Below are positions 1 to 20,626 of a stretch of DNA of 64,000 nucleotides, piece after piece. This stretch comes from Rathayibacter oskolensis. GTDB taxonomy: Bacteria; Actinomycetota; Actinomycetes; Actinomycetales; Microbacteriaceae. Both the position numbers and the translations under genes were made by a program. The notes below the pieces were generated by a model. That model saw nothing but the letters and a program-made list of their open reading frames with translations, had not been told where the DNA came from and searched no databases. Location of the stretch: assembly GCF_900177245.1 (NCBI RefSeq), contig NZ_FXBM01000001.1, forward strand, positions 744,001 through 808,000, in the 5' to 3' direction. Within the stretch, counting starts at the first letter, position 1; each line of letters starts with the position of its first letter.

Positions 1-1008
1 GCTGAAGAACAACGCGGAGAGCATCTGAGCCATCTGCCCGTCCCTGACGGGCGCGACGACCGTGAACAGCTGCGGTTCGGAAAGGACCTCGTCGACGAAG
101 AACTCCGGTCGAGTGCTCACCCGCGCCAGAGTCGGCCGGGCCAGGACGTCCAGCCGGCCGATGACACCCGAGACCCGGCGGTCGAGATCGTCCGGACTAA
201 GGCTGAGCATCGGACGCAGCCGCTCCGCCCCCGCCGAGCCGGGATAGCGCTGGATCGTCGAGGCGAAGACCTCCCTGTCTCGGAGCATCGCCAGGAGCGA
301 CTGGGTCGTGATCCGGCCCCGACGGGGGGAGTCGCGCGCGAGCTCGAGGACTCCACGAAGCAACATCATGTCTTGATTGAAGAAGTAGGGGTCGGTGTTC
401 GGAGGCGCCGAACGGCCCAGGATGCTGCCGACGGCGTTGTCGACATCGCCGTCATCGCTCAGCTCGGCGACCCAGTTCCAGCTCACCGATCGACTCGGAT
501 CCCCGTAGTCGAGGGAGCGTGCTCTCACCCCGACCGCACGGCCTTCGCGGTCGACCTGCTCCCTGATCTCGCGGTGCAGGTCTCCGCGCACATCCACGGT
601 AGCGACCGAGTACCCGGCGCGCAGTCCCGCGACGATCCACGGCACGAGGAAGCTCTGGGTCTTGCCACTCCCGGGCGGGCCGATGACGGCCGCATTGCGC
701 TCCATAGCAGCCGCAGGCAGTGCTGTCCGGCCGAGGTACCCCCTGGTCGGGTGCAGGAAACGTCCGAGGGGGAACTCACCGTCCCGCAGGCCGGGCGGGA
801 CGGATCCGATGCCGAGCACGCCGCGGTAGTCGTAGTAGCCGTCCGTGCCGCCGTCCATGGGCGGGGCGTCGCCCGGCCCGAGGACGCCGCGACGAGCGGC
901 TCGTGACGAGAGCCCGGCGGCGATGCTCGTCGCGGCGTTCTCGGAGGCTCGGACCATCCCGGTCGCGACAGCGTGCGACGCGCGCCACACGGGTCCGATC
1001 CACGGCAT
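1..1008 (-). CDS. VirD4/TraG-like coupling ATPase, 3' end beyond window
   Basis: The frame reads open from an ATG at 1008 to the left edge (336 codons, no stop), so only the N-terminal part is visible. A Walker A motif GPPGSGKT lies at residues 110-117, followed by VDVRGDLHREI, a position where type IV secretion coupling proteins carry a DPKGE-like segment. Further on are SWNWVAEL and a NTDPYFFNQDMMLLRG segment, also typical of the VirD4/TraG P-loop family that pumps DNA or protein. The N-terminus shows no clear pair of membrane helices, unlike classical VirD4. A purine-rich stretch (GCGAGAGGGGG) precedes the ATG. The gene diverges from the vWA-phosphatase-kinase operon across 240 bp. Walker B and the C-terminal domain are outside the window, so family membership is fairly sure but function is not. 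Confidence 0.72.
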   Translation of the reverse strand, partial: MPWIGPVWRASHAVATGMVRASENAATSIAAGLSSRAARRGVLGPGDAPPMDGGTDGYYDYRGVLGIGSVPPGLRDGEFPLGRFLHPTRGYLGRTALPAAAMERNAAVIGPPGSGKTQSFLVPWIVAGLRAGYSVATVDVRGDLHREIREQVDREGRAVGVRARSLDYGDPSRSVSWNWVAELSDDGDVDNAVGSILGRSAPPNTDPYFFNQDMMLLRGVLELARDSPRRGRITTQSLLAMLRDREVFASTIQRYPGSAGAERLRPMLSLSPDDLDRRVSGVIGRLDVLARPTLARVSTRPEFFVDEVLSEPQLFTVVAPVRDGQMAQMLSALFFS

Positions 1009-1248: not shown

Positions 1249-2010
1249 ATGGGCGAACTCAGCGACAAGTACTTCGTGATGCCCTTCTACATCGTCGTGG
1301 ACGTGTCGTACTCGATGGAGGAGAACGGCGGGATACGCGCGATGCCCCAGCTGGTGCCCGCGATCAGGACGGCGCTCGCGGAGAAGCCGCTCGTGCACGA
1401 CATCCTGAGGATCTCGATCCTCGAGTTCGCCGGCACGGCGAACGTGCTCGTGCCGATGAGCCGGCCCAACGAGCTCGGCTCCCCGGACTTCGCGGTCCGG
1501 GGCGACGGCACGAACTACGCCGCAGCGCTGGCGCTCCTGAAGGAGCGCATCATCGCCGACGTCGCGACCCTGAAGAGCCAGAATCTCGACGTCTACCGCC
1601 CCGCGGTCTTCTTCCTGACCGACGGCGAGCCCAACGTCGGTCCAGCCTGGGAGAAGGCCTTCGCCGAGCTCACCTACTTCGACCCCGCGACCGGCGCGGG
1701 ATTCAAGGCCTATCCGCTCTTCGTCCCGCTCGGAGTGGGTGCCGCGTCTCGGACCGTCCTCGGGCAGATGGCGTTCCCTCCTGACGTCTCCCGGCTCTAC
1801 ATGGCCGTCGATCCCGCCGCGGTTCAGGCGGCGATCATCGAAATGGCGAACGTGATGGCGCACACCACCGTCTCGAGCGGGAACACGGCCGTCGGCGCCC
1901 TGGGCTCCGGGGGGAGCGAGGAGCCTCAGCACGTCCTCCCGGACGAGCGCGACCTCGGTCCCGGCGTCACGGTCTCCGCCTCGCAGTACCAGGGTGGAAG
2001 CTTCATCTGA
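1249..2010 (+). CDS. TerY-like von Willebrand factor A domain protein
   Basis: This 253-residue protein is almost entirely one vWA domain. The metal-ion adhesion site is intact: D18-V-S20-Y-S22, T88 in the GDGTNY turn, and D125 in FLTDGEPN. Such cytosolic TerY-type vWA proteins act as adaptors that gather partner proteins around a bound divalent cation. After about residue 215 the tail becomes Gly/Ser-rich and low in complexity. There is no signal peptide. The ATG at 1249 follows an ACGGGGAC ribosome-binding stretch. The stop overlaps the phosphatase start by one base (TGATG), so the two are translationally coupled. vWA, PP2C and kinase genes in this order match the TerY-phosphorylation triad described from comparative genomics. 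The fold is near certain; the biological role is inferred from context. Confidence 0.88.
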   Translation: MGELSDKYFVMPFYIVVDVSYSMEENGGIRAMPQLVPAIRTALAEKPLVHDILRISILEFAGTANVLVPMSRPNELGSPDFAVRGDGTNYAAALALLKERIIADVATLKSQNLDVYRPAVFFLTDGEPNVGPAWEKAFAELTYFDPATGAGFKAYPLFVPLGVGAASRTVLGQMAFPPDVSRLYMAVDPAAVQAAIIEMANVMAHTTVSSGNTAVGALGSGGSEEPQHVLPDERDLGPGVTVSASQYQGGSFI

Positions 2011-2891
2011 TGCCGCGCACGGACGGGCTGGCGCCCCTCGCCCGCTACACCATCGGCGAGCCCGGGCTCGCCTTCGACGGGGTCAGGGCCTCGCTGACGA
2101 GCGGAGTGCGAGCCCCCCACGACACGGTCGTCGACGCCCTCGATCACCCGCGCCTCTCCCTCCGTGCCGCGAGCGTCCGGGGTCTCGTCCACCGCGACGC
2201 AGGCACCCCGCGCCAGGACGCGTTCCGTGTGGCCGAGGGCGACCAGACGATCGTCATCGCCGTCGCCGACGGAGTGGGCTCGCTCCCGCTCTCGCACGTC
2301 GCCGCCCAGTGCGCCGTCGACGCGGCCGTGGAGCTCGTCATCGCGGGCGGTGCGCACCTCCAGCGGGCCGATCCGGTCGCGTGGGGTGCACTGTTCGACC
2401 GGATCTCCGAGATCGTCAGGCACGAGGCGTCGACCGTCCACGCGGGAGAGGCGCGCGAGGCGATGGCGACGACGCTCTGCTGCGCGGTGGTCGACCTCGA
2501 GGCCCAGGTGGTCGTCACGGCCGGCGTCGGCGACTCCTCCTGCTTCCTCCTCCGGGACGGCGCATGGGAGAGCCTCTCGGGCGGGAAGGAGCGCGCCTCC
2601 GCCTCCGGCGTCGTCTCGAACCGCACCGAGGTCCTCCCGGCGCGGGTGAGGACTCGAGTGGTCGTCCGCGAGACCGAGGTGCGGCCGGGCGACGCCCTCG
2701 TCGTCGCCTCGGACGGGATCGGCGACGCGATCGGGGACGGCGGCAGCACGAGCGCGGCGACCCTCGCCGAGTGGTGGCGCACGGCCCCAGCACCGCTCGA
2801 CTTCGCCGCTCAGGTCGGCTTCGGCCGGCTCTCGTTCACCGACGACCGCACCGCCGTCGTCGGCTGGCTGCTCGGCCCCGACCGCGCATGA
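2010..2891 (+). CDS. PP2C-family Ser/Thr protein phosphatase
   Basis: A 293-residue PPM/PP2C phosphatase, expected to hydrolyse phosphoserine/threonine using two metal ions. Visible motifs in order: RQDAF (69-73), the metal-binding DG of VADGVGS (D87-G88), GVGDSSC (172-178), the metal-binding ASDGIGD (S234-D235-G236) and the terminal DDR (278-280). About 50 residues precede the catalytic core and show no signal peptide or membrane segment, so it should act in the cytoplasm. It starts on the last base of the vWA stop codon, and its own stop overlaps the kinase ATG by four bases (ATGA). That linkage makes the downstream kinase, or a protein it phosphorylates, the natural substrate. Catalytic residues look complete. 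Confidence 0.9.
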   Translation: MPRTDGLAPLARYTIGEPGLAFDGVRASLTSGVRAPHDTVVDALDHPRLSLRAASVRGLVHRDAGTPRQDAFRVAEGDQTIVIAVADGVGSLPLSHVAAQCAVDAAVELVIAGGAHLQRADPVAWGALFDRISEIVRHEASTVHAGEAREAMATTLCCAVVDLEAQVVVTAGVGDSSCFLLRDGAWESLSGGKERASASGVVSNRTEVLPARVRTRVVVRETEVRPGDALVVASDGIGDAIGDGGSTSAATLAEWWRTAPAPLDFAAQVGFGRLSFTDDRTAVVGWLLGPDRA

Positions 2892-4501
2892 CAGCACCCC
2901 GCGTGGACGAGCGACAGCTCGGACGGACGACGAGGCTCGGCAGGGGCGGCGCAGCGACGGTGTTCGCGGTGCCGGACTACACGGTGCGCGACTTCCCTGG
3001 CGCACTCGCGTTCAAGCGGTTCACCGCCCTTCCCGAGCCGTCGCTGGTCGATCATCTCGACACCGTCGCCTCCTTCCGGATGGGGCTGGGCCCCGACGAG
3101 AGACGGCGACTCGATGCACTCACGTCCTGGCCACTGCGTCTGGTGACGGACGGGACGGACCGGGTCTGCGGGATCCTGCTCCCGCAGGCGCAGCGGCAGT
3201 TCTTCTACACGGTCGCGGACCGGACGCTGAACTCTTTCGGCGACAGCCGTCCGAGCGAACTCCAGCACCTGTTCGGACCCTGGGAGGACGCGCGCGAGCA
3301 GGGTGTCTCCTGCCCGCCGAAGGACGACACGACCACCCGGCTCGCCCTCGTCCTGTCGGTCTGCGCGACTTTCGCCGTCCTCGAGCGGCACGGGATCGTC
3401 TTCGGCGACGTGTCCTCGGGCAACATCCTCTACTCGCTCGACCCGGTTCCGCGCACCCTCCTCATCGACTGCGACGCCGTCGCCATCACGGGGACGAGGA
3501 CGTCGGCCATCCAGGGGGTCACCCCGGGCTTCACGCCGCCCGAGGGGTCCGGGACAGCGGACGTCTACACCGATCGCTACAAGCTCGGCCTGCTCATCCT
3601 GCGCTCGCTCGCCCCGGCACTCGTCCAGGGTCACTTCGTCCGAGCGCCGAGCAACGTCCGCCCGCTCCTGAGCGACCGACTGGACGAACCGGGGCTGAGG
3701 ATGCTCGAGGACGCCCTCTCCGAGGACCGCGAGGCACGTCCGTCGGCCGGCGAGTGGTTCACCCACCTGCATGCTCTGCTGAGTGAGCGCACGAGTCCGC
3801 CGGTGATCGACTCCGTCGAGCTCGATCACCCGATCGTGGTCGAAGGGGCCGAGCTCGTCCTTCAGGTGAGGAGCCGGGGCGCGCTGACGCTCCGGATCGA
3901 CTGCCCTGGAGGCGAGGTGATCGAGTCGGCGGCGTCCGGCGGCGACACCGTCCGGTTCACCGCCATGCAGAGCGGTGCCGTTCGCGTGCTCGCCGCGAAC
4001 CACTTCGGGCAGGCGAGCGACGACACGCGCTCCGTGCGGGTGCTGCCCGTTCCGACGCCGACCTACGTTCCACTCCCGACGCCGGTGCTGCCCGGCCTCG
4101 ACCGCGAGGACCTCTACATCCTCGAGCGCGGACTCGACGCGGCAGGGGCCACTCGGGACCGGGACGAGCCGTTCCGGCTCGCCGCGGCTGCGTCCTCGTC
4201 GGCCTCGGCCGGCCGGATCGGGGTGGACCAGCTCCTGGACCTCGCCGCCGGCGCCCAGCGTCTCGCGCGCGAACTCGAGTTCCCGGTCTTCACGCCCCTG
4301 ACCACGACGGAGCAGATCGAGGCCGCCGCCCGTGGCCGTCTCGCCGGGCGCGGGCGCCGGGAGATCGCCCGCCGCGAGCGGGCCAGAGATTTCGCCCTCG
4401 GCGCCGCCGCCGTCCGCGCCGAGGGTCGAACGCTGAGCACCAGGGCGGCGTCCGGGATGCGGAACCTCTACACACGACTGACGAGAACGGCGGGCTCATG
4501 A
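2888..4501 (+). CDS. Atypical Ser/Thr protein kinase with C-terminal beta domain
   Basis: The start is the ATG in the ATGA overlap with the phosphatase stop; the frame is open further upstream, but that part shadows the phosphatase gene. The 537-residue product has a glycine-rich loop (LGRGGAATVFAV, 17-28), the ATP-anchoring lysine in AFKRF (K43), a catalytic loop GDVSSGN (D174, N179) and a metal-binding LIDCDAV in which DFG is replaced by DCD (194-196). GFTPPE (214-219) stands for the APE motif. This GD...GN/DCD pattern is typical of kinases in TerY-type triads. Residues from about 303 to 390 look like an immunoglobulin-like beta sandwich; a proline-rich linker and a basic helical tail follow. 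No membrane segment is seen. It overlaps the DUF4407 gene by four bases. Confidence 0.85.
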   Translation: MTAPRVDERQLGRTTRLGRGGAATVFAVPDYTVRDFPGALAFKRFTALPEPSLVDHLDTVASFRMGLGPDERRRLDALTSWPLRLVTDGTDRVCGILLPQAQRQFFYTVADRTLNSFGDSRPSELQHLFGPWEDAREQGVSCPPKDDTTTRLALVLSVCATFAVLERHGIVFGDVSSGNILYSLDPVPRTLLIDCDAVAITGTRTSAIQGVTPGFTPPEGSGTADVYTDRYKLGLLILRSLAPALVQGHFVRAPSNVRPLLSDRLDEPGLRMLEDALSEDREARPSAGEWFTHLHALLSERTSPPVIDSVELDHPIVVEGAELVLQVRSRGALTLRIDCPGGEVIESAASGGDTVRFTAMQSGAVRVLAANHFGQASDDTRSVRVLPVPTPTYVPLPTPVLPGLDREDLYILERGLDAAGATRDRDEPFRLAAAASSSASAGRIGVDQLLDLAAGAQRLARELEFPVFTPLTTTEQIEAAARGRLAGRGRREIARRERARDFALGAAAVRAEGRTLSTRAASGMRNLYTRLTRTAGS

Positions 4502-5928
4502 GCGCACTGGGAAGCGGACTGGTCTGGCTCGGCGGCGCTCGACAGGACGTGATCGTCGACGCTCCGGGCGAGCGCCCGCGCTTCCGCGCGATGGGGCTCG
4601 TGATCCTGAGCACGGCAGCACTGTCCGGCGTCTCGGCGGCCTACGCCGTCGTGATGGCCCTCAGCCTGCCCGCACCGATCGCGATCCTGATCGGCGCGTT
4701 CTGGGGACTCGTCATCCTCAACCTGGACCGTCTGCTGGTCGTCGGGATGCAGAAGCAGAAGAGCGTGCTGCACAACATCGGGCTCGCCCTGCCGCGCGTC
4801 CTCCTCGCCCTCATCGTCGGAACCGTCATCTCGACGCCCCTGACCCTGCAGGTCTTCGACAAGGAGATCCAGACCGAGATCGTGAGGATGTCGGAGGAGA
4901 GGGAGGCCGCCTACAAGAACGAGCTCGCCACGGATCCCGAACTGGCGAAGATCCCCGCGCTCGAAGCGGAGATCGCGGCGAACCAGCAGATCGTCAACGC
5001 CGGCGGCGGCCTCGTCGATCTGAGCAAGGACCAGAACTACGTCGCCGCGCAGAAGGCGACGGCCGACGCGCAGGCCGCCTACGACCAGGCGAACGCCACG
5101 TGGCTCGGAGAGCTGGACGGATCGAACGGCACGGGGATCGTCGGCGATGGGCCGATCACGCGGTCGAAGAAGCTCGACCGAGATCTCAAGCTCGACGCGT
5201 TGAGCGCGGCCAAGGAGGCGGAGGCCACCGCGAAAACTGCCGCGCAGCAGAACCTCGCCGCATCAGCCAGCACGGCTCTCGCGGACGCCGACGCCCAGCT
5301 GGTCGCCGACCGCGCGGAGCTCGCCGCCCTGGTGCAGCAGCGGGATGAGAAGACGGCGGGCTACCAGTCGCTCGCGGCGAACAGCGGCGGGATCCTCGCG
5401 CGCCTCGAGGCGCTGTTCCGCCTCGGGGAGGCGAACCCGCTGTTGAATCTCGCGCACCTGATGCTGGCGGCGTTGTTCGTCGCGATCGAGCTGCTCCCGG
5501 TCGTCTTCAAGACGCTCGCGAACCTCGGGTCGCCGACCGCGTACGACCGCGTCGCCGAGATCAAGGATCGCGCGGTGGTCGAAGGGGGAGAGATCTGGGC
5601 CCAGCGCCACGCAGAGGCCATCGAGCAGCTCGCGGCGGTCCAGGTCCACACAGCGCACGACATGGCCAATCGTCAGATCGATTCGGGGATCGCTGTGAAC
5701 GAGAAGGTGATCGGGCAGCAGGAGATCGTCGTGACGCGGGCGCTCGATGTCTGGGGCGAGTACGCAGCAGAACGAGCGGAGTCGAAGATCCGAGAGTGGG
5801 AGGAGACGCTGGCGCGCCAGGCGGACGCCACGGGTCAGACGCACGCCTCCGGCGCGACTCCGCCGCCCCGATCGCAGCCGCCGGGATTCGTGAGCGGGCT
5901 CGGGCTCCCGGCACCCGAGAGCATCTGA
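4498..5928 (+). CDS. DUF4407-family membrane coiled-coil protein
   Basis: The 476-residue product has three N-terminal hydrophobic helices (about 32-55, 58-83 and 98-118), a long Ala/Glu/Lys-rich segment predicted to be coiled coil or helical hairpin (about 120-300), a fourth hydrophobic helix (314-340) and a charged C-terminal tail ending in a proline-rich stretch. The WGLVILNLDRLLV segment in helix two and the IELLPVVFKTLANLG segment in helix four are hallmarks of DUF4407, a family without established function. The first codon overlaps the kinase stop (ATGA), so it is part of the same translation-coupled operon. It could anchor the vWA-phosphatase-kinase module to the membrane or be its phosphorylated effector; both are inference. 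Confidence 0.85.
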   Translation: MSALGSGLVWLGGARQDVIVDAPGERPRFRAMGLVILSTAALSGVSAAYAVVMALSLPAPIAILIGAFWGLVILNLDRLLVVGMQKQKSVLHNIGLALPRVLLALIVGTVISTPLTLQVFDKEIQTEIVRMSEEREAAYKNELATDPELAKIPALEAEIAANQQIVNAGGGLVDLSKDQNYVAAQKATADAQAAYDQANATWLGELDGSNGTGIVGDGPITRSKKLDRDLKLDALSAAKEAEATAKTAAQQNLAASASTALADADAQLVADRAELAALVQQRDEKTAGYQSLAANSGGILARLEALFRLGEANPLLNLAHLMLAALFVAIELLPVVFKTLANLGSPTAYDRVAEIKDRAVVEGGEIWAQRHAEAIEQLAAVQVHTAHDMANRQIDSGIAVNEKVIGQQEIVVTRALDVWGEYAAERAESKIREWEETLARQADATGQTHASGATPPPRSQPPGFVSGLGLPAPESI

Positions 5929-5938
5929 GGGTCCCATC

Positions 5939-6307
5939 GTGCAGGGAACTGCTGGATCCGGATGGAGGCGTGTGCTCCGCGGCGCCGGACGGGTGAAGGA
6001 CATCGCCGAGGCGGCGATGCTCGTGGTGAATCCCCTCATCACGCCACCCCCCGTCGCGCCGGAGCCGGTCCGGAGCGATCGACCTGCGCTCGTCCGCGCC
6101 GCCGAGAAGCCACCGGTGCGACCCACCACGCGCGAGCAGTTCGAGGCACTCGACGAATCGCAGCGGCGGCTCGAACGGCAGCGCCGTGCGGAGGCCATGC
6201 AGGCAGGTCGCGAAGGCCGCGACGCTCGGATCGAGCAGCACCCCGAGCCGATTCGTCGTCGGGACGACGAGACACGCCGAGCCCGGTCTCGCCGACGCGC
6301 ACGCTGA
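5939..6307 (+). CDS. Small basic hypothetical protein, last gene of the operon
   Basis: A possible 122-residue protein starting with GTG ten bases after the DUF4407 stop, preceded by GAGGG. It has a short hydrophobic patch near residues 20-38 (DIAEAAMLVVNPLI), a proline-rich stretch, and a C-terminal half dominated by Arg, Glu and Asp that ends in an arginine-rich tail. No family is recognised. Position and direction favour a fifth operon member, but the basic, low-complexity composition could also arise by chance in GC-rich DNA. It ends 22 bp before a convergent gene. Confidence 0.45.
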   Translation: MQGTAGSGWRRVLRGAGRVKDIAEAAMLVVNPLITPPPVAPEPVRSDRPALVRAAEKPPVRPTTREQFEALDESQRRLERQRRAEAMQAGREGRDARIEQHPEPIRRRDDETRRARSRRRAR

Positions 6308-11496: not shown

Positions 11497-12441
11497 TCAC
11501 GGGACCAGGACGATCTTCCCGCGGACGTGCCCGTCCTCGCTCAGGCGGTGCGCCTCCGCGACCTCGTCGAGGGGGAGACGCGGACCGATCTCGACCGAGA
11601 ATCGCCCCTCCACGACGAGCCGGACGGCGAGCGGGACCGCCTCGCGGCGCAGGCGCTGCTCCTGCTCGGTCAGCGGGACGGGGCTGCCTCCCGACCAGGC
11701 TCGGATGCCCAACTCCGCCGCCCGAGCGCCCGCCACCACGGTGCCGACGTGCTGCCGGTCGGCGACGAGTGCCAGGGAGGCGGCGAGCGCCTCGTCGGTG
11801 CCCGCCGCGTCGAGCACTCGGTCGACGCCGTCGGGCGCGGCCGCGCGCAGGCGCTCCAGGAGTCCCGGTCCGTAGGCGACCGGCACGGCCCCGAGCTCGC
11901 GCAGGCGGTCGTGGTTGCGCGGGCTCGCCGTGGCGATGACGGTCGCGCCGCGTTCGCGCGCGAACTGGACGGCGGCCTGCCCGACCGCTCCGGCGCCGGC
12001 GTGGACGACGAAGGTCGACCCCTCCTCGACGCCGAGCGACACGACGGCCTGATAGGCGGTGCCGACCGGGATGCCCAGCGCCGCCGCCTCCTCGAACCCG
12101 AGCCCCGCGGGCTTCGCGTCGAGGCACTCGGGCGCGACGACCACGGAGGCGGCGTAGGTGCCGACCGCGCCCGTCACGACGACCTCGTCGCCGACCGACC
12201 AGCCCGGCACGCGAGCGCCGACGGCGGTGATCACACCGGAGCCGTCGGCCCCCACTCGCCGCGGCGACGTGATCGGCGGGCTGGGCCGCACTCCCGAGCG
12301 GATCTTCCACTCGATCGGGTTGACCCCGGCCGCCCTCACGGCGACGACGACGGCGTCGTCGGGCGCCTCGGGCTCGGGGGCGTCGACCACCTCGAGCACC
12401 TCCGGTCCGCCGATCTCGCGGTACTGCACGATCCTCGCCAT
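11497..12441 (-). CDS. Zinc-independent MDR, quinone oxidoreductase-like
   Basis: A 314-residue medium-chain dehydrogenase/reductase with N-terminal GroES-like fold (GVNPIEWKIRSG) and a Rossmann NADPH site HAGAGAVGQAAVQFA around residues 146-160. Zinc-binding cysteines are absent, which fits the quinone oxidoreductase/enoyl reductase branch. The ATG at 12441 follows a strong GGAGGAGG site. Substrate unknown; enones or quinones are typical of the family. It lies between the thiolase and acyl-CoA ligase genes, and the tight spacing suggests one operon. Confidence 0.87.
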   Translation of the reverse strand: MARIVQYREIGGPEVLEVVDAPEPEAPDDAVVVAVRAAGVNPIEWKIRSGVRPSPPITSPRRVGADGSGVITAVGARVPGWSVGDEVVVTGAVGTYAASVVVAPECLDAKPAGLGFEEAAALGIPVGTAYQAVVSLGVEEGSTFVVHAGAGAVGQAAVQFARERGATVIATASPRNHDRLRELGAVPVAYGPGLLERLRAAAPDGVDRVLDAAGTDEALAASLALVADRQHVGTVVAGARAAELGIRAWSGGSPVPLTEQEQRLRREAVPLAVRLVVEGRFSVEIGPRLPLDEVAEAHRLSEDGHVRGKIVLVP

Positions 12442-12467
12442 GTCGTCCTCCTCCGACTCGTCGGGGG

Positions 12468-14168
12468 TCAGTCCATCAGCTTCTGGCGGACCTCGCGCCG
12501 GAGCACCTTGCCGATCAGCGAGGTCGGCAGCTCGGTCACCACGTCGATCCGCTTGGGCACCTTGTAGGGAGTCAGGTGGACGCGGCAGAAGTCGCGCAGC
12601 GCCTCGGTGTCGACCGCGGTGCCGGGGCGGAGGACGACGGCGGCGGCGACGCTCTCGCCTCCGTCGGCGCGGGGGAGCCCGACGACGGCGGCGCGGACGA
12701 CGTCGGGGTAGGACTCGAGGACACCCTCGACCTCGGACGGCGAGACGTTGAACCCGCCGGTGATGATGAGCTCCTTCGCCCGGTCGACGATGGTGACGAA
12801 GCCGTCGGCCGAGACGGTCGCGATGTCGCCGGTGCGGAGCCAGCCTCCTGCCAGCAGCGTCTCTGCCGTGTCGTCCGGGCGCTTCCAGTAGCCCTGGAAC
12901 ACCTGCGGCCCGCGCAGGAGCAGCTCGCCCGACTCGCCGGCCCCGCGATCGACCGACGGATCGGCGGGGTCGACCAGCCGGATCTCTGTGCTCGGGAACG
13001 GCACGCCGACGGTGCCCGGGCGGCGGGTGGGCCCGACCGGGTTGCCGAGGGCGACCGGGGAGGACTCCGTCATCCCGTAGCCCTCGACGAGCAGGCCGCG
13101 GCTCGCCCGCTCCCAGCGGTCGACGGTCGCGACGGGGAGGCCCATGGCTCCCGAGATCGCGAAGCGGATGCCGCGCAGATCGATCTCGTGCCGCTCCGAT
13201 GCTCGCGCGAGCGCCTCGTAGACCGGGGGCACGGCCGGCAGGAACGTCGGCGGGGAGGACTTGGCCGCCGCCTTGACCAGTCCGACGTCGAAGGTGGGGA
13301 ACAGCACGACCCTGGCGCCGATGCTGATCGCGAACGTGAGGCAGAGGGTGAGCCCGTAGGCGTGGAACAGCGGCAGGACCGCGTAGAAGGTCTCGTCGCC
13401 CTCGCGCAGACCCGGGACCCAGGCCCGCCCCTGCATCGCGTTCGCGCGGAGGTTGGCGTGCGAGAGGATCGCGCCCTTCGGCGTGCCCGTCGTGCCGCTG
13501 GTGTACTGCAGCAGGGCCGTGTCGCCGAGGGAGGGGCGCGGGTGCGACCGTGCGAGACGCCGGCCGCCCAGGAGGCGGTCGAACGGGACGAGCGTCCGGG
13601 TGCGCGTGCGCGCGGTCAGCTTGGCGCGGGCGGCTCGGGCCCTGGGCAGGGGCAGCCGCAGCGCGAGGCGCTTGGCGAGCGGGAACGACTCCGTCAGATC
13701 GACCGACACGACCCGCTCGATGCCGAGGTCGGCGGGCATCGTCGCGACGACGTCGGCGACCTTGTTCCAGACCACTGCGAAGCGGGCGCCGTGGTCCTCG
13801 AACTGCCGGCGCAGCTCCCGGGGCGTGTAGAGCGGGTTGTGCTCGACGACGATCGCGCCCAGCCGCAGCGCCGCATAGAAGGCGACCACGTGCTCGGGGC
13901 AGTTCGGGAGGACGAGCGCGACCCGGTCGCCGGGGCGGACGCCGAGCCTGCGGAGGCCCTCCGCCGCCCGCGACACGCGATCGCCGAGCTCGGCGTAGCT
14001 CGTCTCGGCGCCGAAGAACTCGAGGGCCGTGCCGCGCCGGTAGCGCGCCACCGAGTCCTCGAGCAGATCGACGAGCGTCTGGGTGGGCGGATCGATCTCG
14101 GTCGGGACGCCCTCCGCGTAGGAGGTCAGCCACGGCTTCGTCGCCAGGTCAGGGGTTCCGGGGGTCAC
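12468..14168 (-). CDS. Long-chain fatty-acid-CoA ligase (AMP-dependent)
   Basis: An adenylate-forming ligase of about 566 residues that converts fatty acid, ATP and CoA to acyl-CoA. Seen in order: the P-loop-like LLQYTSGTTGTPKGAI, the FHAYG segment, GYGMTESSP, the hinge GWLRTGD, IITGGFNVSPSEVE, and the catalytic lysine in TSLIGKVLRREVR. The GTG at 14168 gives the usual N-terminus (TPGTPDLATKPWLTSYAEGVP); the frame is open 20 codons further, but that part is Arg-rich and lacks family similarity. The ribosome-binding site is weak at both starts. First gene of the lipid module and divergent from the DinB gene across 89 bp. Confidence 0.88.
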   Translation of the reverse strand: MTPGTPDLATKPWLTSYAEGVPTEIDPPTQTLVDLLEDSVARYRRGTALEFFGAETSYAELGDRVSRAAEGLRRLGVRPGDRVALVLPNCPEHVVAFYAALRLGAIVVEHNPLYTPRELRRQFEDHGARFAVVWNKVADVVATMPADLGIERVVSVDLTESFPLAKRLALRLPLPRARAARAKLTARTRTRTLVPFDRLLGGRRLARSHPRPSLGDTALLQYTSGTTGTPKGAILSHANLRANAMQGRAWVPGLREGDETFYAVLPLFHAYGLTLCLTFAISIGARVVLFPTFDVGLVKAAAKSSPPTFLPAVPPVYEALARASERHEIDLRGIRFAISGAMGLPVATVDRWERASRGLLVEGYGMTESSPVALGNPVGPTRRPGTVGVPFPSTEIRLVDPADPSVDRGAGESGELLLRGPQVFQGYWKRPDDTAETLLAGGWLRTGDIATVSADGFVTIVDRAKELIITGGFNVSPSEVEGVLESYPDVVRAAVVGLPRADGGESVAAAVVLRPGTAVDTEALRDFCRVHLTPYKVPKRIDVVTELPTSLIGKVLRREVRQKLMD

Positions 14169-14257
14169 CCGAGCGAGTATCCGGCACTCGCCTCGGCGGA
14201 TCCTCCGAGCGCGCCGCAAGGGGTGCACGGGTGCGCGGACCCGAGCAGACTGGCGGT

Positions 14258-14776
14258 ATGAGTGCAGCCATCGACCTCCTCCGAGACGGCTTCGGCCGCG
14301 TGCACGAGACCGTGCACGCCGTCCTCGACGACGTCACCCCCGAGCAGCTCGCCTACCGGCCCGACCCCGAGGCGAACTCGATCGCCTGGCTCGTCTGGCA
14401 CCTCACCCGGGTGCAGGACGACCACCTCGCGCCGCTCGCCGACCGCGAGCAGGTCTGGACGGCGGACGGCTTCCACGAGCGCTCGGGTCTGCCGTTCTCG
14501 CCCGAGGCGAGCGGCTACGGGCAGTCGCCCGCCGAGGTCGGGGCGCTCGCCGCGCTCCCGGCCGAGCTGCTCACCGCCTACGTCGACGCCGTGCACGAGC
14601 GGACCCTCGCCTACCTCGGCACCCTCGACGACGACGAGCTGCCGCGCGTCGTGGACACCCGCTGGGACCCGCCGGTCACCCTCGCAGTGCGCCTGGTCTC
14701 GGTCCTCGACGACGACATCCAGCACGCCGGCCAGGCCGCGTTCGTGAAGGGCCTCGCCGAGCGCGCAGGCCGCTGA
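14258..14776 (+). CDS. DinB-family (DUF664) protein
   Basis: A 172-residue four-helix-bundle protein. IAWLVWHLTRVQDDHL holds the first metal-binding histidine pair of the DinB/YfiT fold and DDDIQHAGQAAFVKG the third. Many family members are metal-dependent transferases using mycothiol or similar thiols, which would fit an actinobacterium; the substrate is unknown. The ATG at 14258 was chosen over the long open frame upstream, which shadows the ligase gene. It is followed 29 bp later by a GT-C membrane protein gene. Confidence 0.85.
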   Translation: MSAAIDLLRDGFGRVHETVHAVLDDVTPEQLAYRPDPEANSIAWLVWHLTRVQDDHLAPLADREQVWTADGFHERSGLPFSPEASGYGQSPAEVGALAALPAELLTAYVDAVHERTLAYLGTLDDDELPRVVDTRWDPPVTLAVRLVSVLDDDIQHAGQAAFVKGLAERAGR

Positions 14777-14805
14777 CCGCACGCGCCGCCGTCTACGGTG
14801 GCGGG

Positions 14806-16230
14806 GTGCGGAGTGTGCGAGCGATCCCGGCTGCGGCCGTCTTCGCGCTCGCGACCGTGCTGACCCTCCTGGGCTCGTGGATCCCGTCGTACTGGAACGA
14901 CGAGGCCGCCACTCTCCGCCTCGCCCGCCTCCCGCTCGACGAGCTGCTCGCGTTCGTGCAGCAGAAGGACGCCGTGCACGCGGTGTACGCGCTGCTGATG
15001 CACGGCTGGATCGCGGTCGCCGGAGAGTCGGAGCTCGCCGTGCGCGCACCCTCCGCCGTCGCGACCGGTGCGGCGGCCGTCGGCGTGCTCGTCCTCCTGC
15101 GCGAGGCCGGGCCGCCACGGGCGGCGGTGCTCGCCGCGATCGTGTTCGTGCTCCTGCCGCGCTCCTCCTTCAACGGGACGGAGGCGCGATCGTACGCGCT
15201 GACGACGGCGCTGGTCGTGTGGGCCGCGGTGCTCGTGCTCCGGGCCGCCCGTGACGGAGGCGCCGTGCGCTGGGTGGCCGTCGTCGTGGTCGCAGGAGCG
15301 GCGAACGCCGTGTTCCTCTACTCGGTGCTGGTGCTGCCCACGTTCGTGGTGCTCGCGGCGGCGGTCGCTGAGCGCAGGCGCCGAGCCGTCGTGGTCGGCT
15401 CGATCGCCGCGCTGCTCTCGGCGCTCGCCGCGATCCCGATCCTCGTGCTGGCGGCCGGTCAGAGCTCTCAGATCGGCTGGCTGCGATCGCAGCCGGTGAA
15501 CGCGTGGACCGTCGTGGTCGAGCCGTTCTTCGGCTCCTCCTGGTGGCTGGCCGCGCTCGTCGTCGCCGTGCTCGCGGTGGCGGCGGCGCGGACGAGGCGG
15601 ACGACGCTCCCGATCCTGCCCGCCCTCGTGCTCTGGCTGCTGGCACCCGCCGTGATCCTGCTCGTGGCGAGCGCCGTCGTCGGTCCGTCGTACACGCCCC
15701 GCTACCTGAGCATGAGCTCGCCCGCCCTCGCGATGCTGCTCGGGCTGGCTCTGGCCACCTGGCGCCCCGTCGTCTCGGCGGCCCTCGTCGGCGTCCTCGC
15801 GGCCGCCTCGCTGCCCGCCCTCCTCGGCATGCGCACCGAGACGGGCAAGCCGGCGGGGCAGGATCTGCGGGCCCTCGCCCGCACGATCGAGGAGGGCGCG
15901 CTCCCCGGCGACGCCTTCCTCCTCGACGACACCGGGACCGTGTCGCTGCGGCCCCGGGTCGCTCTCGCCGCCTACCCCGACGCCTTCGCCGGTCTCGACG
16001 ACGTCGCACTCCTGGCTCCCTACCCGACCACCGGCAGCTACTCCGACGCGCTGCTCGACGACGCCGAGCTGCGCGCGGCGCTCGAGGGCGAGAGCCGGGT
16101 CTGGGTCGCCGTCCCCGACTCCGACCCCGACGCCTTCGCGTGGCTCCGCGAGGAGGGCTTCGAGCCGGGGGAGCAGGTGCGCGTGCCGACCGTCGTGGTG
16201 ACCCTGTGGCAGCGGGAGGCGAGCGGCTGA
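14806..16230 (+). CDS. GT39/GT-C-type membrane glycosyltransferase-like protein
   Basis: A 474-residue polytopic protein with about ten hydrophobic helices. The first periplasmic loop has SYWNDEAATLRLARL, matching the acidic WxDEA motif of GT-C glycosyltransferases that use polyprenyl-phosphate sugars, followed by HAVYALLMHGW, as in GT39-like mannosyltransferases. The last 120 residues form a soluble extracytoplasmic domain. GTG start. Sugar donor and acceptor cannot be deduced. It ends 116 bp before the citrate-lyase-like gene. Confidence 0.8.
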   Translation: MRSVRAIPAAAVFALATVLTLLGSWIPSYWNDEAATLRLARLPLDELLAFVQQKDAVHAVYALLMHGWIAVAGESELAVRAPSAVATGAAAVGVLVLLREAGPPRAAVLAAIVFVLLPRSSFNGTEARSYALTTALVVWAAVLVLRAARDGGAVRWVAVVVVAGAANAVFLYSVLVLPTFVVLAAAVAERRRRAVVVGSIAALLSALAAIPILVLAAGQSSQIGWLRSQPVNAWTVVVEPFFGSSWWLAALVVAVLAVAAARTRRTTLPILPALVLWLLAPAVILLVASAVVGPSYTPRYLSMSSPALAMLLGLALATWRPVVSAALVGVLAAASLPALLGMRTETGKPAGQDLRALARTIEEGALPGDAFLLDDTGTVSLRPRVALAAYPDAFAGLDDVALLAPYPTTGSYSDALLDDAELRAALEGESRVWVAVPDSDPDAFAWLREEGFEPGEQVRVPTVVVTLWQREASG

Positions 16231-16346: not shown

Positions 16347-17213
16347 GTGACGTTGCCCACCCCCGCCCCCACCGCACTGAAGCGCAAGGGGCGCGATGTC
16401 GCCCCCGAGATCGCGCGCTCGTGGCTGCTGGTCAACGCGACCCGGACCGAGACCTTCGACGCCGCCCACGCGTCGCGCGCCGATCAGGTCGTGCTCGACA
16501 TCGAGGACGCCGTCGACCCGAAGGCCAAGCCCGGAGCGCGATCCGATGTCGTCGAGTGGCTGAAAGGCGACAAGCGCGCCTGGGTGCGCATCAACGACCA
16601 CTCCACCGCGTTCTGGTCGGACGACGTCGACGCGCTGAAGGGCCTCCCCGGGCTCGCCGGCGTCATGCTCGCCAAGACCGAGGCAGCGGAGCACGTCACC
16701 GAGACCTTCGACCGGCTCGGCGGGTCCACCCCCGTGCTGGCGCTGGTGGAGTCGGCGCTCGGCATCGAGGAGGCCGTCTCGATCGCGCGCGCCCGTGGCA
16801 CCTTCCGCCTCGCGTTCGGCAGCGGCGACTACCGCCGCGACACCGGCACCAGCGCCGACGACCTGGCGATGGCCTACCCGCGCTCGCGCCTCGTCGTCGC
16901 CTCGCGGATCGGCGACCTCCCCGGCCCCATCGACGGGCCGACCGTGTCGAACAGCCACCCCGTCCTCCGCGAGCAGTCGGCCCTGACCGTCTCCCTCGGT
17001 CTCACCGGCAAGCTCTGCCTCGACACCGAGCAGCTCGCGGTGATCAACGAGGTCATCAGCCCCACTCCGTCCGACGTGGCCTGGGCGCGCGACTTCCTCG
17101 ACGACTTCGAGGCGCGCGGGCGCGTCATCCGCGACGGCAGCGACCTGCCGCGGCTGGGCCGGGCGAAGAAGATCGACAAGCTGGCGACGGCCTTCGGTGT
17201 GAACCCGCTCTGA
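16347..17213 (+). CDS. HpcH/HpaI aldolase / citrate lyase beta-like CoA ester lyase
   Basis: A 288-residue TIM-barrel protein of the CitE-like family. Visible elements are SWLLVNATR, the metal-coordinating VLDIEDAVDPKAK segment, WVRIND, and the second metal ligand in ALVESALGIEEA, followed by FGSGDYRRD. Such stand-alone CitE homologues cleave or hydrolyse CoA esters such as malyl-CoA or citramalyl-CoA. The start is GTG after a weak GAGAGGA site. No partner citrate lyase subunits are nearby. Confidence 0.85.
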   Translation: MTLPTPAPTALKRKGRDVAPEIARSWLLVNATRTETFDAAHASRADQVVLDIEDAVDPKAKPGARSDVVEWLKGDKRAWVRINDHSTAFWSDDVDALKGLPGLAGVMLAKTEAAEHVTETFDRLGGSTPVLALVESALGIEEAVSIARARGTFRLAFGSGDYRRDTGTSADDLAMAYPRSRLVVASRIGDLPGPIDGPTVSNSHPVLREQSALTVSLGLTGKLCLDTEQLAVINEVISPTPSDVAWARDFLDDFEARGRVIRDGSDLPRLGRAKKIDKLATAFGVNPL

Positions 17214-17265
17214 TCCGTTCGCCCGGGGGCGCTCGCGACACGCGCGTCTCCGGGTCACACTGGGG

Positions 17266-17302
17266 AACGACGACACCGGGCACGACGACACCGGGCACGA
17301 CG
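17266..17302. repeat. 15-bp tandem repeat, about 2.5 copies
   Basis: ACGACGACACCGGGC recurs with a period of 15 bases between the lyase and VOC genes, and the third partial copy runs into the GAAGGAG ribosome-binding site of the next gene. Small copy-number changes would alter the leader length. No gene lies here. Confidence 0.6.
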
Positions 17303-17314
17303 AAGGAGCCTCGC

Positions 17315-17788
17315 ATGGGCGCAGTCAGCACGTTCCTCTGGTTCGACGACGGGGCGGGGGAGGCGGCCGACCTCTACACGAGCCTGATCCCGAACTCGCG
17401 GATCCTCGACAAGCAGGTCCTGCCCGAGGGCTCGCCCTCGCCCGGCACCGTGCTGACGGTGAGCTTCGAGCTCGACGGCCAGAGCTTCCAGGCGATGAAC
17501 GCCGGGCCGAGGTTCCCGTTCACCGAGGCGATCTCGATCGTCATCGCGGTCGACGATCAGGCCGAGCTCGACCGGCTGTGGGATGCGCTCCTCGCCGACG
17601 GCGGGCAGGAGAGCCGGTGCGGCTGGCTCAAGGACCGCTGGGGGCTCTGGTGGCAGATCGTGCCGCGCGTCCTGGCGTCGCTCCTGAGCGGCTCCGACCC
17701 CGAGGGCGCCTCTCGCGCCACGCAGGCGATGCTGGCCATGGGCCGACTCGACATCCGCGCTCTCGAAGAGGCCTATGCCGGCGCGTGA
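17315..17788 (+). CDS. VOC-family (PhnB-like) protein
   Basis: A 157-residue glyoxalase-fold protein of the PhnB / '3-demethylubiquinone methyltransferase-like' VOC group: FLWFDDGAGEAADLYTSLIPNSRI at the N-terminus, SFELDGQSFQAMNAGPRFPFTEAIS in the middle, and CGWLKDRWGLWWQIVPRVL near the end. These proteins are found widely in actinobacteria with no settled reaction. The ATG at 17315 follows GAAGGAG. The end overlaps the next gene by 14 bases. Confidence 0.87.
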   Translation: MGAVSTFLWFDDGAGEAADLYTSLIPNSRILDKQVLPEGSPSPGTVLTVSFELDGQSFQAMNAGPRFPFTEAISIVIAVDDQAELDRLWDALLADGGQESRCGWLKDRWGLWWQIVPRVLASLLSGSDPEGASRATQAMLAMGRLDIRALEEAYAGA

Positions 17789-18479
17789 GTCCGGGCGCCC
17801 GCGCCGCTCGACCTCGATGCGTCGCGCCTACCTCCGCGACTACCGCTACGCCTACGGATCGCGCTTCGCGCACCTGCGCGACGGCTGGGACGTGTCGCAC
17901 TACTCCTCCGGAGACGCAGCGCCGGTGCTGCTCATCCCGGGCGTCTACGAGACGTGGCAGTTCCTGCAGCCGGTCGCCGACCGCCTGCACGGGGCCGGCC
18001 ACCCGATCCACGTGCTGCCGGCGCTGGGATACAACACCCGACCGATCGTCGCCTCCGCGGCGCTCGGCCAGCAGTATCTGCGCGAGAACGATCTGAGCGG
18101 AGTCGTGGTCGTCGCGCACAGCAAGGGCGGACTGATCGGCAAGCACATGATGGTCGTCGACGACCTCGACGAGAAGCGGATCGTCCGGATGATCGCGGTC
18201 TCGACGCCGTTCAACGGGTCGCCGCTCGCGAGGATCGCCCCGGCGCGGGCGCTGCGGGAGTTCGCGCCGCACCGGCCGGTGATCCGCACTCTGCTCGCCG
18301 AGCGCGACGCCGACTCGCGCATCACGTCGATCTACGGGATGCGCGATCAGTACATCCCGGGCGGGAGCCGCCTCGTGGGGGCACGCGAGAACATCGCCGT
18401 GTCGGTGGTCGGTCACTTCGCGCTGCTGTCGCACCCGCGGGTGCTCGACCTCATCGCCTCGCGCGTGGACCGGGAGTGA
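17775..18479 (+). CDS. Alpha/beta-hydrolase, lipase-like
   Basis: A 234-residue alpha/beta-hydrolase. The oxyanion region reads LLIPGVYETWQFLQPVADRL, and the nucleophile elbow is AHSKGG with S116, a variant of GxSxG where the first glycine is alanine, as in some triacylglycerol lipases. An Asp near 185-195 and the histidine in VVGHFALLSHP probably complete the triad. No signal peptide; the N-terminus is basic. The ATG at 17775 overlaps the VOC gene; an in-frame ATG at 17817 is an alternative. Confidence 0.82.
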   Translation: MPARESGRPRRSTSMRRAYLRDYRYAYGSRFAHLRDGWDVSHYSSGDAAPVLLIPGVYETWQFLQPVADRLHGAGHPIHVLPALGYNTRPIVASAALGQQYLRENDLSGVVVVAHSKGGLIGKHMMVVDDLDEKRIVRMIAVSTPFNGSPLARIAPARALREFAPHRPVIRTLLAERDADSRITSIYGMRDQYIPGGSRLVGARENIAVSVVGHFALLSHPRVLDLIASRVDRE

Positions 18480-18494
18480 GCTCCGCGCCCGGGG

Positions 18495-18932
18495 TCAGGA
18501 CCAGGGCGTGAGCAGCACGAGCGGGATCTCGCGCTCCGTCTTCGTCTGGTACACCGCGTAGTCGGGCCAGGCGGCGACCGACCGCTCCCACCAGACCACG
18601 CGCTCCTCGCCCTCGAGCACGCGCGCGGTGTAGTCCTTCTTGACCGGACCGTCCTGCAGCTCGACGTGCGGCTCCTTGAGCATGTTGCCGTACCAGACCG
18701 GGTGCTCGGGCGCCCCGCCCTTCGAGGCGACGACGACGTACTCGCCGTCGTGCTCGACGCGCATGAGGGCGGTCTTGCGCAGCCTGCCGCTGCGGGAGCC
18801 GACCGTCGTCAGCACGATGATCGGCTTGCCGCGGAGGAGGTTCCCCTCCGCACCATCGGTCGCTTCGTACAGCTCCGCCTGCTCGCGGGCCCAGGCGGAC
18901 GTGCTCGGTTCGTATTCTCCGGTGAGGGGCAT
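18495..18932 (-). CDS. Ddn-like deazaflavin (F420)-dependent nitroreductase
   Basis: A 145-residue split-barrel protein of the deazaflavin-dependent nitroreductase family. [25 protein letters not shown] and [19 protein letters not shown] are signature segments for F420 binding, and [23 protein letters not shown] is the typical C-terminal helix. Members reduce quinones or nitro compounds with F420H2; the physiological substrate is unknown. Single gene, convergent with the lipase gene. Confidence 0.9.
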
Positions 18933-19027
18933 TCCCCGATCGTACGTCGGCTCGCGCGCGGGGTGGGGACGGCGGATCGACGCCGTGGCTGCCCGGCTCC
19001 GACCCTCCGGTGCACGAGGATGGTCCG

Positions 19028-20626
19028 GTGCAGCCGGCAGACCAGCTCGACCCCGCGCTCGTGGCGCTCCTCCGCGAGGATCTCGCCCGCGCCCGCTACC
19101 GGGTCGACGCGGTCAGGGAGCTGTGGGGCGAGGCCGCGGGCGAGGCGCTGCACCGCGGCGACCGCGTGCCCGCGAGGCGCGCCCTCGAGCGGGCGGGCGA
19201 CTCGGGGCCGCTGGTGTCGCTGGCGCGACTGTTCCTCCTCGCTGATCCGATCTCCGCGGAGTCGGCGGGCCGGGCGTTCTCGACCCTCGGCCTCGACGGC
19301 GCGATCGAGCTCGGTCTCGTCGTGGCGGAGGCGGGAGCCGTCGTGACCGCCGCGATCGATCTGCGTCCCTACGATCTGGTCGACCTGCGCGGAGCGGCGT
19401 CGTGGTGGATCGCCTCCGACCTCGGCGAGCTGGCCCTCGGGCGCGCCCTCGATGAGGACCACGTCCTGGGAGTGGGCGGCGCGAGCCTCACGCTGACGGG
19501 GCTGATGATCCAGCGGGCGGTCGGCAGCGTGCTCGATCTGGGCACGGGCTGCGGGATCCAGGCGCTGCACGCCTCCCGTCACGCGCAGCGGGTGGTCGCC
19601 ACGGACATCTCGGAGCGCGCTATCTCCTTCGCCGCGTTCAACGCTGCGCTCAACGGCATCGACACCATCGAGTTCCGGCTCGGCAGCCTCTACGAGCCGG
19701 TCGCTGGCGAGCGCTTCGACCACATCGTGACCAACCCGCCCTTCGTGATCACTCCGCGGGCGGCGGGCGTCCCCTCCTACGAGTACCGCGACGGCGGCCT
19801 CGAGGGCGACGAGATCGTGCACCGGGTCGTCGTCGGCGCGGCCGAGCACCTCGTCCCCGGCGGCATCGCGCAGCTGCTGGGCAACTGGGAGTACCGCGAG
19901 TCGGGCGACGCGTTCGACCGCGTGCGCGGCTGGCTGGACGACGCGCGCAGCCCCCTCTCACGAGCGCTCGAGCCGGAGCCCGCGGGACTCGACGCCTGGA
20001 TGGACGGCACCGCGTCACCGCTGGACGTGTGGATCGTGGAGCGCGAGCGCCAGGACCCGGCGGTCTACGCCGAGACCTGGATCCGCGACGGCGGGACGAC
20101 CCGCGGGGCCGACTTCGACCTGCTCGTCGACGCCTGGGTCGGCGACTTCGAGCGGCGGGGTGTGACCGGGGTCGGCTTCGGCTACGTCACTCTGCGCCTC
20201 CCCGCGACCGCTCGCCCGCCTCTCCGGCGCTTCGAGAGAATCGACGCCGCCTTCGCGACGGCGGGCCTCGGCGGGCATCTCGCGGACTGCCTCGACGCCG
20301 CGGAGGCGCTGTCCGGTATTGACGACGCGGCCCTCGCCGGACTCGCCCTGTCGGTCGCCGGCGACGTCACCGAGGAGCGGCACTACTGGCCGGGCAACGA
20401 CGACCCGACGGTGCTCCGGCTCCGGCAGGGGGGCGGCTTCGCCCGCGTCGAGGACGTCGACACGGCGCTCGCCGCGGTCGTCGGCGCCTCGGACGGCGAG
20501 CTGTCGCTGGGCGCGATCGTCTCGGCCGTGGCCTCGCTCCTGCAGGTGGACGAGGCGGCGGTGCGGGAGTCGGTGCTGCCGCAGGTGCGCGAGCTCGTCG
20601 CCACGGGGATGCTGCACCTGCCCTGA
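19028..20626 (+). CDS. Large HemK-like class I methyltransferase
   Basis: A 532-residue protein with a SAM-binding DLGTGCG at 170-176 and the TNPPF motif at 235-239, the signature of N5-glutamine or N6-adenine methyltransferases such as HemK/PrmC. About 150 residues precede the core and about 250 follow, including a probable winged-helix-like end, so it is larger than PrmC (about 280 residues). Such long actinobacterial homologues are usually annotated only as methyltransferases. The GTG at 19028 is preferred because GAGGA precedes it; a GTG at 19010 is in frame but has no such site. The residue next to the NPPF motif suggests a planar amide or amine target. Confidence 0.82.

Follow-up and report, generated by a model that had tools for sequence, protein, structure and literature searches.

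The TerY-P triad is composed of a vWA domain protein, a PP2C-type phosphatase and a Ser/Thr kinase (Anantharaman et al. 2012, cited in PMC11090510), and its kinases, as described in the parts of PMC11090510 available to us, carry a zinc ribbon or an OB-fold where the kinase reported below has an Ig-like domain. A TerY-P-like antiphage module has an OB-fold kinase (Gao et al. 2020, cited in the same parts of PMC11090510), and the kinase-PP2C-vWA theme is also found in the GAP1-N2 GTPase-centric conflict systems of actinobacteria (Kaur et al. 2020, PMC7159879, available in part). Here we analysed a 64,000 nucleotide stretch of the genome of Rathayibacter oskolensis (contig NZ_FXBM01000001.1, positions 744,001 to 808,000; hereafter the window), in which such a triad is followed by a gene for a DUF4407 membrane protein, together with related loci from other genomes. 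The triad and the GAP1 theme are already known; the new result is a co-loss series, in which vWA, PP2C and the kinase active site are repeatedly missing together while DUF4407 and the Ig-like domain remain.

The window operon (1249-5928, + strand) consists of four genes arranged head to tail in the order vWA, PP2C, kinase and DUF4407. The vWA gene ends and the PP2C gene starts at 2010, giving an overlap of 1 base, and the PP2C/kinase and kinase/DUF4407 overlaps are 4 bases each (2888-2891 and 4498-4501). The first gene (1249-2010) encodes a TerY-like protein of 253 amino acids (Pfam VWA_2, E = 3.6e-07), for which no match was found in NCBIfam or PADLOC at E 0.1; the five residues of its metal ion-dependent adhesion site (MIDAS), D18, S20, S22, T88 and D125, are invariant across the 10 vWA proteins aligned. 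The second gene (2010-2891) encodes a PP2C-type Ser/Thr phosphatase of 293 amino acids (Pfam PP2C_2, E = 3.3e-25), whose metal-binding D70, D87, D175, D235 and D279 are invariant across the nine PP2C proteins aligned. The original prediction, made from the letters of the window, had described the four open reading frames (ORFs) with these overlaps, an intact MIDAS and a complete PP2C, of which it named D235, and all of this was recovered. With three gene types adjacent on one strand, overlapping by 1 and 4 bases, and with intact MIDAS, phosphatase and kinase residues, the first three genes resemble the TerY-P triad as far as it is described in the available parts of PMC11090510, which agrees with the assignment made earlier. 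The same vWA/PP2C/kinase logic is shared with the OB-fold antiphage module.

The third gene (2888-4501, + strand) encodes a protein kinase of 537 amino acids, with an N-terminal kinase domain, a C-terminal Ig-like domain and a helical tail. No Pfam family was matched at E 0.1, and the kinase was identified by alignment of its motifs with 15 relatives, supported by the residue table and by a Foldseek search in which its structure model matched solved kinases at E of about 1e-8; the model is modest, with a mean predicted local distance difference test score (pLDDT) of 63 and values below 50 across residues 174-213, the catalytic loop included. The catalytic residues K43, D174, N179 and D194 (DCD) are all present, with the GD...GN and DCD motifs and D174 correctly named in the original prediction.

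Absent from that prediction is a beta-rich domain of about 95 residues after the kinase domain (residues about 303-397, window 3785-4087, + strand), with strands at 306-386 in the model (pLDDT 72-89). An Ig profile scores 2.6e-32 on the window kinase, which is itself one of its 13 rows. A nine-row domain profile, searched against PDB by sequence alone, matched a titin chain (1.4e-04) and axonin-1 (2.4e-04) with one passing stretch each, and when chains were scored whole, further Ig chains reached values as low as 3.8e-08; Pfam above its cut-offs names an Ig-like domain in none of the examined domains. These profile matches and the modelled strands identify the C-terminal part as a predicted Ig-like domain. 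In the called gene sets searched (those of L198-L227 being outside the search), the Ig profile matched DUF4407-linked proteins, the protein of locus L129 and, weakly (0.0018), one at L148. The profile was built from alignment A6, by which the Herbiconiux, most Rhodococcus and the window matches are matches by construction; L001, L178, L228, L231 and L129 are not among its rows. We regard the Ig-like domain as a hallmark of DUF4407-linked kinases. Unlike the CoCoNuT form of the TerY-P triad with its zinc-ribbon kinase, as described in the available text, the window kinase has an Ig-like domain and no CxxC motif, and the operon ends in DUF4407. Unlike the OB-fold antiphage module, it has the Ig-like domain at the OB-fold position and a membrane protein in the operon.

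The original prediction had coupled DUF4407 to the triad, and a neighbourhood survey found complete vWA/PP2C/kinase/DUF4407 sets beyond the window, at loci L035, L038, L041, L178 and L228. When genomes were scanned with a DUF4407 alignment of two rows, 68 loci were obtained, 16 of which carry the related kinase nearby (nine from Herbiconiux, seven from Rhodococcus or Prescottella); among the remaining 52, some lie on short contigs or have general kinases only. The surveys below scored few first-look candidates per genome (Microbacteriaceae, 3 for the kinase and 5 for DUF4407; Rhodococcus family, 4 and 6; class level, 4), and kinases or DUF4407 genes may be missed. Among 398 Microbacteriaceae genomes, the kinase search returned 19 at E ≤ 0.001, of which eight with weak matches (7e-05 to 9e-04) were dropped as general kinases. 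The kinase was matched at E < 1e-30 in 11 genomes, DUF4407 was above cut-off in 29, and both were present in 10. This is not a fixed housekeeping locus, which would have counted against the original prediction. In nine of these 10 the two genes share contig and strand, separated by 0.8-13.2 kb, and in the tenth (G159) they are on different contigs; the eleventh kinase genome (G377) has a vWA-PP2C-kinase triad without DUF4407, near type I restriction genes.

In the Rhodococcus family, the kinase profile matched 31 of 381 genomes and DUF4407 was found in 112. All 11 full-length Ig-type kinases found (E < 1e-100) share their strand with DUF4407 and are separated from it by 1.05-1.8 kb, as measured between the matched stretches, and in a further genome (G1029) the Ig-like part only adjoins DUF4407. 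In contrast, none of the 19 genomes with other related kinases has DUF4407 nearby; the gene is present in 11 of them, either on a different contig or at a distance of 1.3 Mb or more. At class level, 20 stretches were fetched from 29 matches and 18 of them have vWA, PP2C and kinase on one strand (the other two are one with kinases on the opposite strand and one starting at a contig end without vWA); L178 is the sole stretch with DUF4407 and also the sole one with the Ig-like domain. At L002 (5890-8376), on Rhodococcus plasmid pLW2, a fusion of DUF4407 with a Ser/Thr kinase is encoded, and PP2C, FHA and FtsW/RodA genes come next. This is a second DUF4407-kinase coupling, with a different protein kinase. 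Separately, ordinary DFG Ser/Thr kinases were seen on the opposite strand within several kb of DUF4407 at seven Modestobacter loci (L018, L020, L022, L023, L032, L051 and L055).

Comparison of the linked kinases revealed that the four catalytic residues are intact in every complete set. The Herbiconiux kinases that were read, at loci without vWA and PP2C, have lost the Lys, the Asn and the metal-binding Asp; the same three are lost in L036, L037 and L056, partly via other substitutions, and all four in L042. The residue table left out L075-L128 and L149-L177, which are short stretches and mostly repeats (five of these were read later), and for L228-L230 the kinase residues were assessed by eye. 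Nineteen genomes were then searched whole for the triad vWA and PP2C. Four have both (E of 4e-71 or better and 5e-76 or better, respectively) and an intact kinase. Another 14 are without either partner and without a competent kinase: a pseudokinase is present in 13, and the kinase domain is gone in one. Weak PP2C matches (4e-07 to 1e-03) were seen in 13 of the 14 and none in the other, and one vWA match, at 1.7e-4, lay on another contig. The last genome (G779, locus L011) lacks both partners and its kinase is unreadable, with the N-terminus beyond the available DNA; the same holds for the kinase N-terminus of L017, whose genome was outside the search. Profiles A7 and A9 contain the window, L041, L129 and L178 proteins (A7 also that of L035) and exclude those of L038 and L228. 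The co-absence rule therefore fits 18 of 18 readable genomes, yet these represent only two to three independent comparisons.

Four genomes were found after the rule had been noted, and all fit: G972, a new lineage, combines vWA and PP2C with an intact kinase; G974 and G1005, both closely related to cases already known, have neither partner and a pseudokinase; and G1029 has neither partner and no kinase domain, with a 214-residue Ig-like protein directly after DUF4407. Locus L178, complete and with an intact kinase, was likewise found afterwards. The Ig-only protein beside DUF4407 is that of locus L231. Five further Herbiconiux-type kinases, outside the whole-genome search, are pseudokinases on reading. 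The well-supported branches of the kinase tree (INDEPENDENCE) cannot be explained with fewer than two pseudokinase changes, and on the DUF4407 tree, to which the Ig-only case was added, at least three changes of state are required, a gain possibly among them. The Ig-only L231 and the complete L178 are nearest DUF4407 relatives (support 100/100). The family label of L037 in the tree, cyanobacterial, is probably an error, the locus being from Rhodococcus sp. IEGM 1379.

Evidently, catalysis is not the invariant part of DUF4407-linked loci. DUF4407 and the Ig-like protein survive, so that the pair would do something without phosphorylation. If phosphorylation is a toggle, joint loss is to be expected, because loss of PP2C would leave the kinase unopposed. 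Tentatively, and with somewhat less than even confidence, we propose a membrane signalling device of two parts, DUF4407 and a cytoplasmic Ig-like protein, which needs no catalysis and is governed in some lineages by a TerY-P-type layer of kinase, phosphatase and vWA. After loss of vWA and phosphatase, the kinase would decay to a pseudokinase and in the end leave the Ig-like adaptor by itself. Provided that active sites, once lost, are never regained, this would have happened on at least three independent occasions. The natural series of full set, pseudokinase and Ig-only protein hints at the essential part of the switch. Such pseudokinase and kinase-less forms also set the DUF4407-linked loci apart from the TerY-P triad as it appears in the available text.

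The fourth gene (4498-5928, + strand) encodes a protein of 476 amino acids with a full match to DUF4407 (PF14362; 248.2 bits against a gathering cut-off of 31.3, E = 1.4e-73, profile positions 2-294 of 297), a family to which Pfam assigns no function; it is unlike the family in having a kinase partner here. Hydropathy and an AlphaFold2 model (pLDDT 87.4, predicted template modelling score 0.55) agree on four membrane helices, at about 34-52, 59-78, 94-112 and 318-336, the second of which has its hydropathy peak at 50-68 and its model helix at 59-84. Between helices three and four lies a hairpin (113-311) with model helices at 121-145, 149-167, 179-207 and 219-295, in agreement with the four membrane helices and coiled coil of 180 residues originally predicted, and beyond the fourth a helix of 97 residues (348-444). 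The loop after helix two, at about 79-93, is slightly positive (3 K/R, 1 D/E) and the hairpin acidic (19 K/R, 31 D/E), modest evidence which suggests that the N-terminus is inside and the hairpin outside the membrane. Hairpin 113-311 is thus probably extracytoplasmic and helix 348-444 cytoplasmic. With the hairpin outside, the N-terminus, short loop and C-terminal helix would be the sole parts of DUF4407 within reach of the enzymes. The original prediction, in which kinase and phosphatase control a coiled-coil effector in the membrane, is upheld for the coupling to a membrane protein and not for the position of the coil, which it had placed with the enzymes and which the modest evidence of hydropathy and loop charge puts outside; away from the enzymes, DUF4407 may be a sensor rather than an effector.

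By a narrow balance, we favour a TerY-P phosphorylation switch in a membrane-anchored form, with DUF4407 and the Ig-like protein as its core. DUF4407 would sit in the membrane with its helical hairpin outside and its N-terminus, short loop and long helix inside, and the cytoplasmic kinase would dock onto its inner face through the Ig-like domain. Kinase and PP2C would set the phosphorylation of the complex, most likely on the DUF4407 tail, the vWA protein or both, with the vWA protein as a metal-dependent scaffold holding the complex. DUF4407 and the Ig-like protein would be the working core, and kinase activity, PP2C and vWA a regulatory layer which some lineages jointly lack. The gene content and overlaps, the intact active-site residues, the conserved linkage and the joint absence are observed; from them the model infers the topology, the Ig docking, the substrate, the direction of signalling and the physiological input. 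If correct, it would add a membrane-bound branch to the TerY-P family, and the widespread DUF4407 would gain a partner, a probable topology and a candidate docking domain.

Several observations weigh against this model. The DUF4407 C-terminal tail is also acidic (13 K/R against 20 D/E), so charge backs the topology only partly, and the proposed docking of the Ig-like domain on DUF4407 is suggested by genomic linkage alone. The gap between kinase and DUF4407 reaches 13 kb in Herbiconiux-type loci, so the two are not always in one operon, and L129, from the same genome as L089, is a triad with an Ig-like kinase and without DUF4407. An exception to the co-absence rule is L001, on a Rhodococcus opacus plasmid: its kinase is intact, and neither the triad vWA nor the PP2C was found in a search of the 745 kb plasmid only, though an empty answer of this kind counts for little by itself. 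The DUF4407 reading frame of L001 is without the first two membrane helices, and the locus was presumably broken recently. The two trees disagree on L178, which the kinase tree separates from the pseudokinase clade of Rhodococcus and the DUF4407 tree joins with it in one clade; the branches of the window and L228 are long. Two to three independent pairs go the same way, none the opposite way and up to one shows no difference, so that a sign test is not significant. Finally, DUF4407 is without this kinase partner in 100 of the 112 Rhodococcus-family and 19 of the 29 Microbacteriaceae genomes that have it. This last point, with the rarity of DUF4407 among class-level triads (1 of 20 stretches), would also fit DUF4407 as a mere passenger beside a triad which works alone, the coupling having no function. 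We consider this very improbable given the linkage of all Ig-type and no other kinases in the Rhodococcus family, the proximity kept while gene order varies, the kinase-DUF4407 fusion, and the retention of DUF4407 with the Ig-like domain after catalysis was lost.

Neighbouring genes bear on two further explanations. One is an antiphage system of the TerY-P-like kind, in which DUF4407, as the membrane part, would damage the cell or seal it off once the kinase fires; such a role is compatible with the membrane-anchored switch and is a real possibility, which we hold at a little under even chance. Defence-type neighbours are frequent, and at L228 two TIR-domain genes (12629-13846, - strand, 1.3e-19; 16949-19099, + strand, 5.5e-15) lie about 1-5 kb from the complete set. 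However, PADLOC gave only kinase-domain matches on the window operon (best MkoA, 2.8e-08), no nuclease is encoded in the operon, and 10 more genes of the window, located at 9.8-20.6 kb, have metabolic roles or no assignment. Nor were known defence genes found among the 10 genes scanned between kinase and DUF4407 at five Herbiconiux loci, which encode dehydrogenases, a peptidase, regulators, NYN, a DUF6036 protein and two proteins without match.

The other explanation is a Ter-related switch for envelope or metal stress, whose sensor for envelope damage or metal would be the outer part of DUF4407, with the triad as its relay. Ter genes adjoin complete sets at L035 (TerD, TerC/DUF475 and a second TerD), L041 (TerD and TerC/DUF475) and L038 (TerD), a TerD domain is present at the GAP1-type locus L036, and the DUF4407 hairpin is predicted to be extracytoplasmic; moreover, a role as a metal-sensing switch is hypothesised for TerY-P in the available parts of PMC11090510. 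Against this, no Ter family was found among the 16 neighbouring window ORFs scanned, the window starting only 1.2 kb before the operon, and we consider this explanation unlikely. Proximity to Ter genes and restriction systems is itself a likeness between relatives of the window locus and the TerY-P triad as described there.

The GAP1 genes adjoining L036 recall the GAP1-N2 systems in the part of Kaur et al. 2020 available to us, from which L036 differs in carrying a pseudokinase and no vWA or PP2C. No GAP1 domain was found in the five operon ORFs and 16 neighbouring ORFs scanned, the window beginning about 1.2 kb upstream of the operon, and a word search of Kaur et al. 2020 (PMC7159879) did not find DUF4407. 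In the partly available sources of our literature search DUF4407 appeared only as table entries, and it was not found together with PP2C, vWA and kinase; the 2012 TerY-P paper was outside that search and may mention it.

A "small basic ORF" had also been predicted after the operon (5939-6307, + strand), and this did not stand. Its GC content at third codon positions is 0.75, against 0.88-0.93 in the four operon genes, the gene caller did not predict it, no Pfam match was found, and tblastn at E 1e-3 against 74 and then 129 related loci gave no match. Without a coding signal, it is probably not a gene. On the left of the operon, a partial gene at 1-1008 (- strand), cut by the window start, matches a type IV secretion/conjugative coupling protein (PF02534, 9.6e-08), which suggests a conjugative element there.

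Additional genes were noted at the related loci. At L148 (8832-18115, Microbacteriaceae G349), a second DUF4407 gene is accompanied by a convergent gene for a 246 amino acid protein with the weak Ig-like match mentioned above, and a kinase and PP2C pair lies about 5-7 kb beyond. In Rhodococcus-family loci, a protein of 192-211 amino acids is encoded between DUF4407 and the kinase (L035 9546-10142, L036 9626-10204, L178 7550-8185 and relatives), with 24-62% identity to the L035 copy among seven aligned and no Pfam match in the two scanned. A protein of 204-224 amino acids with three hydrophobic segments, absent from the window operon, is encoded directly before DUF4407 in loci of the same family (L035 7260-7919, L042 7318-7992, L178 5391-6044). 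VWA_CoxE, DUF5682 and MoxR-type AAA genes are convergent to the pseudokinase locus L042 of Prescottella subtropica (11704-16216, - strand), and a small protein with a DA1-like match (4.1e-08) is encoded just before the kinase at L178 (8415-8927).

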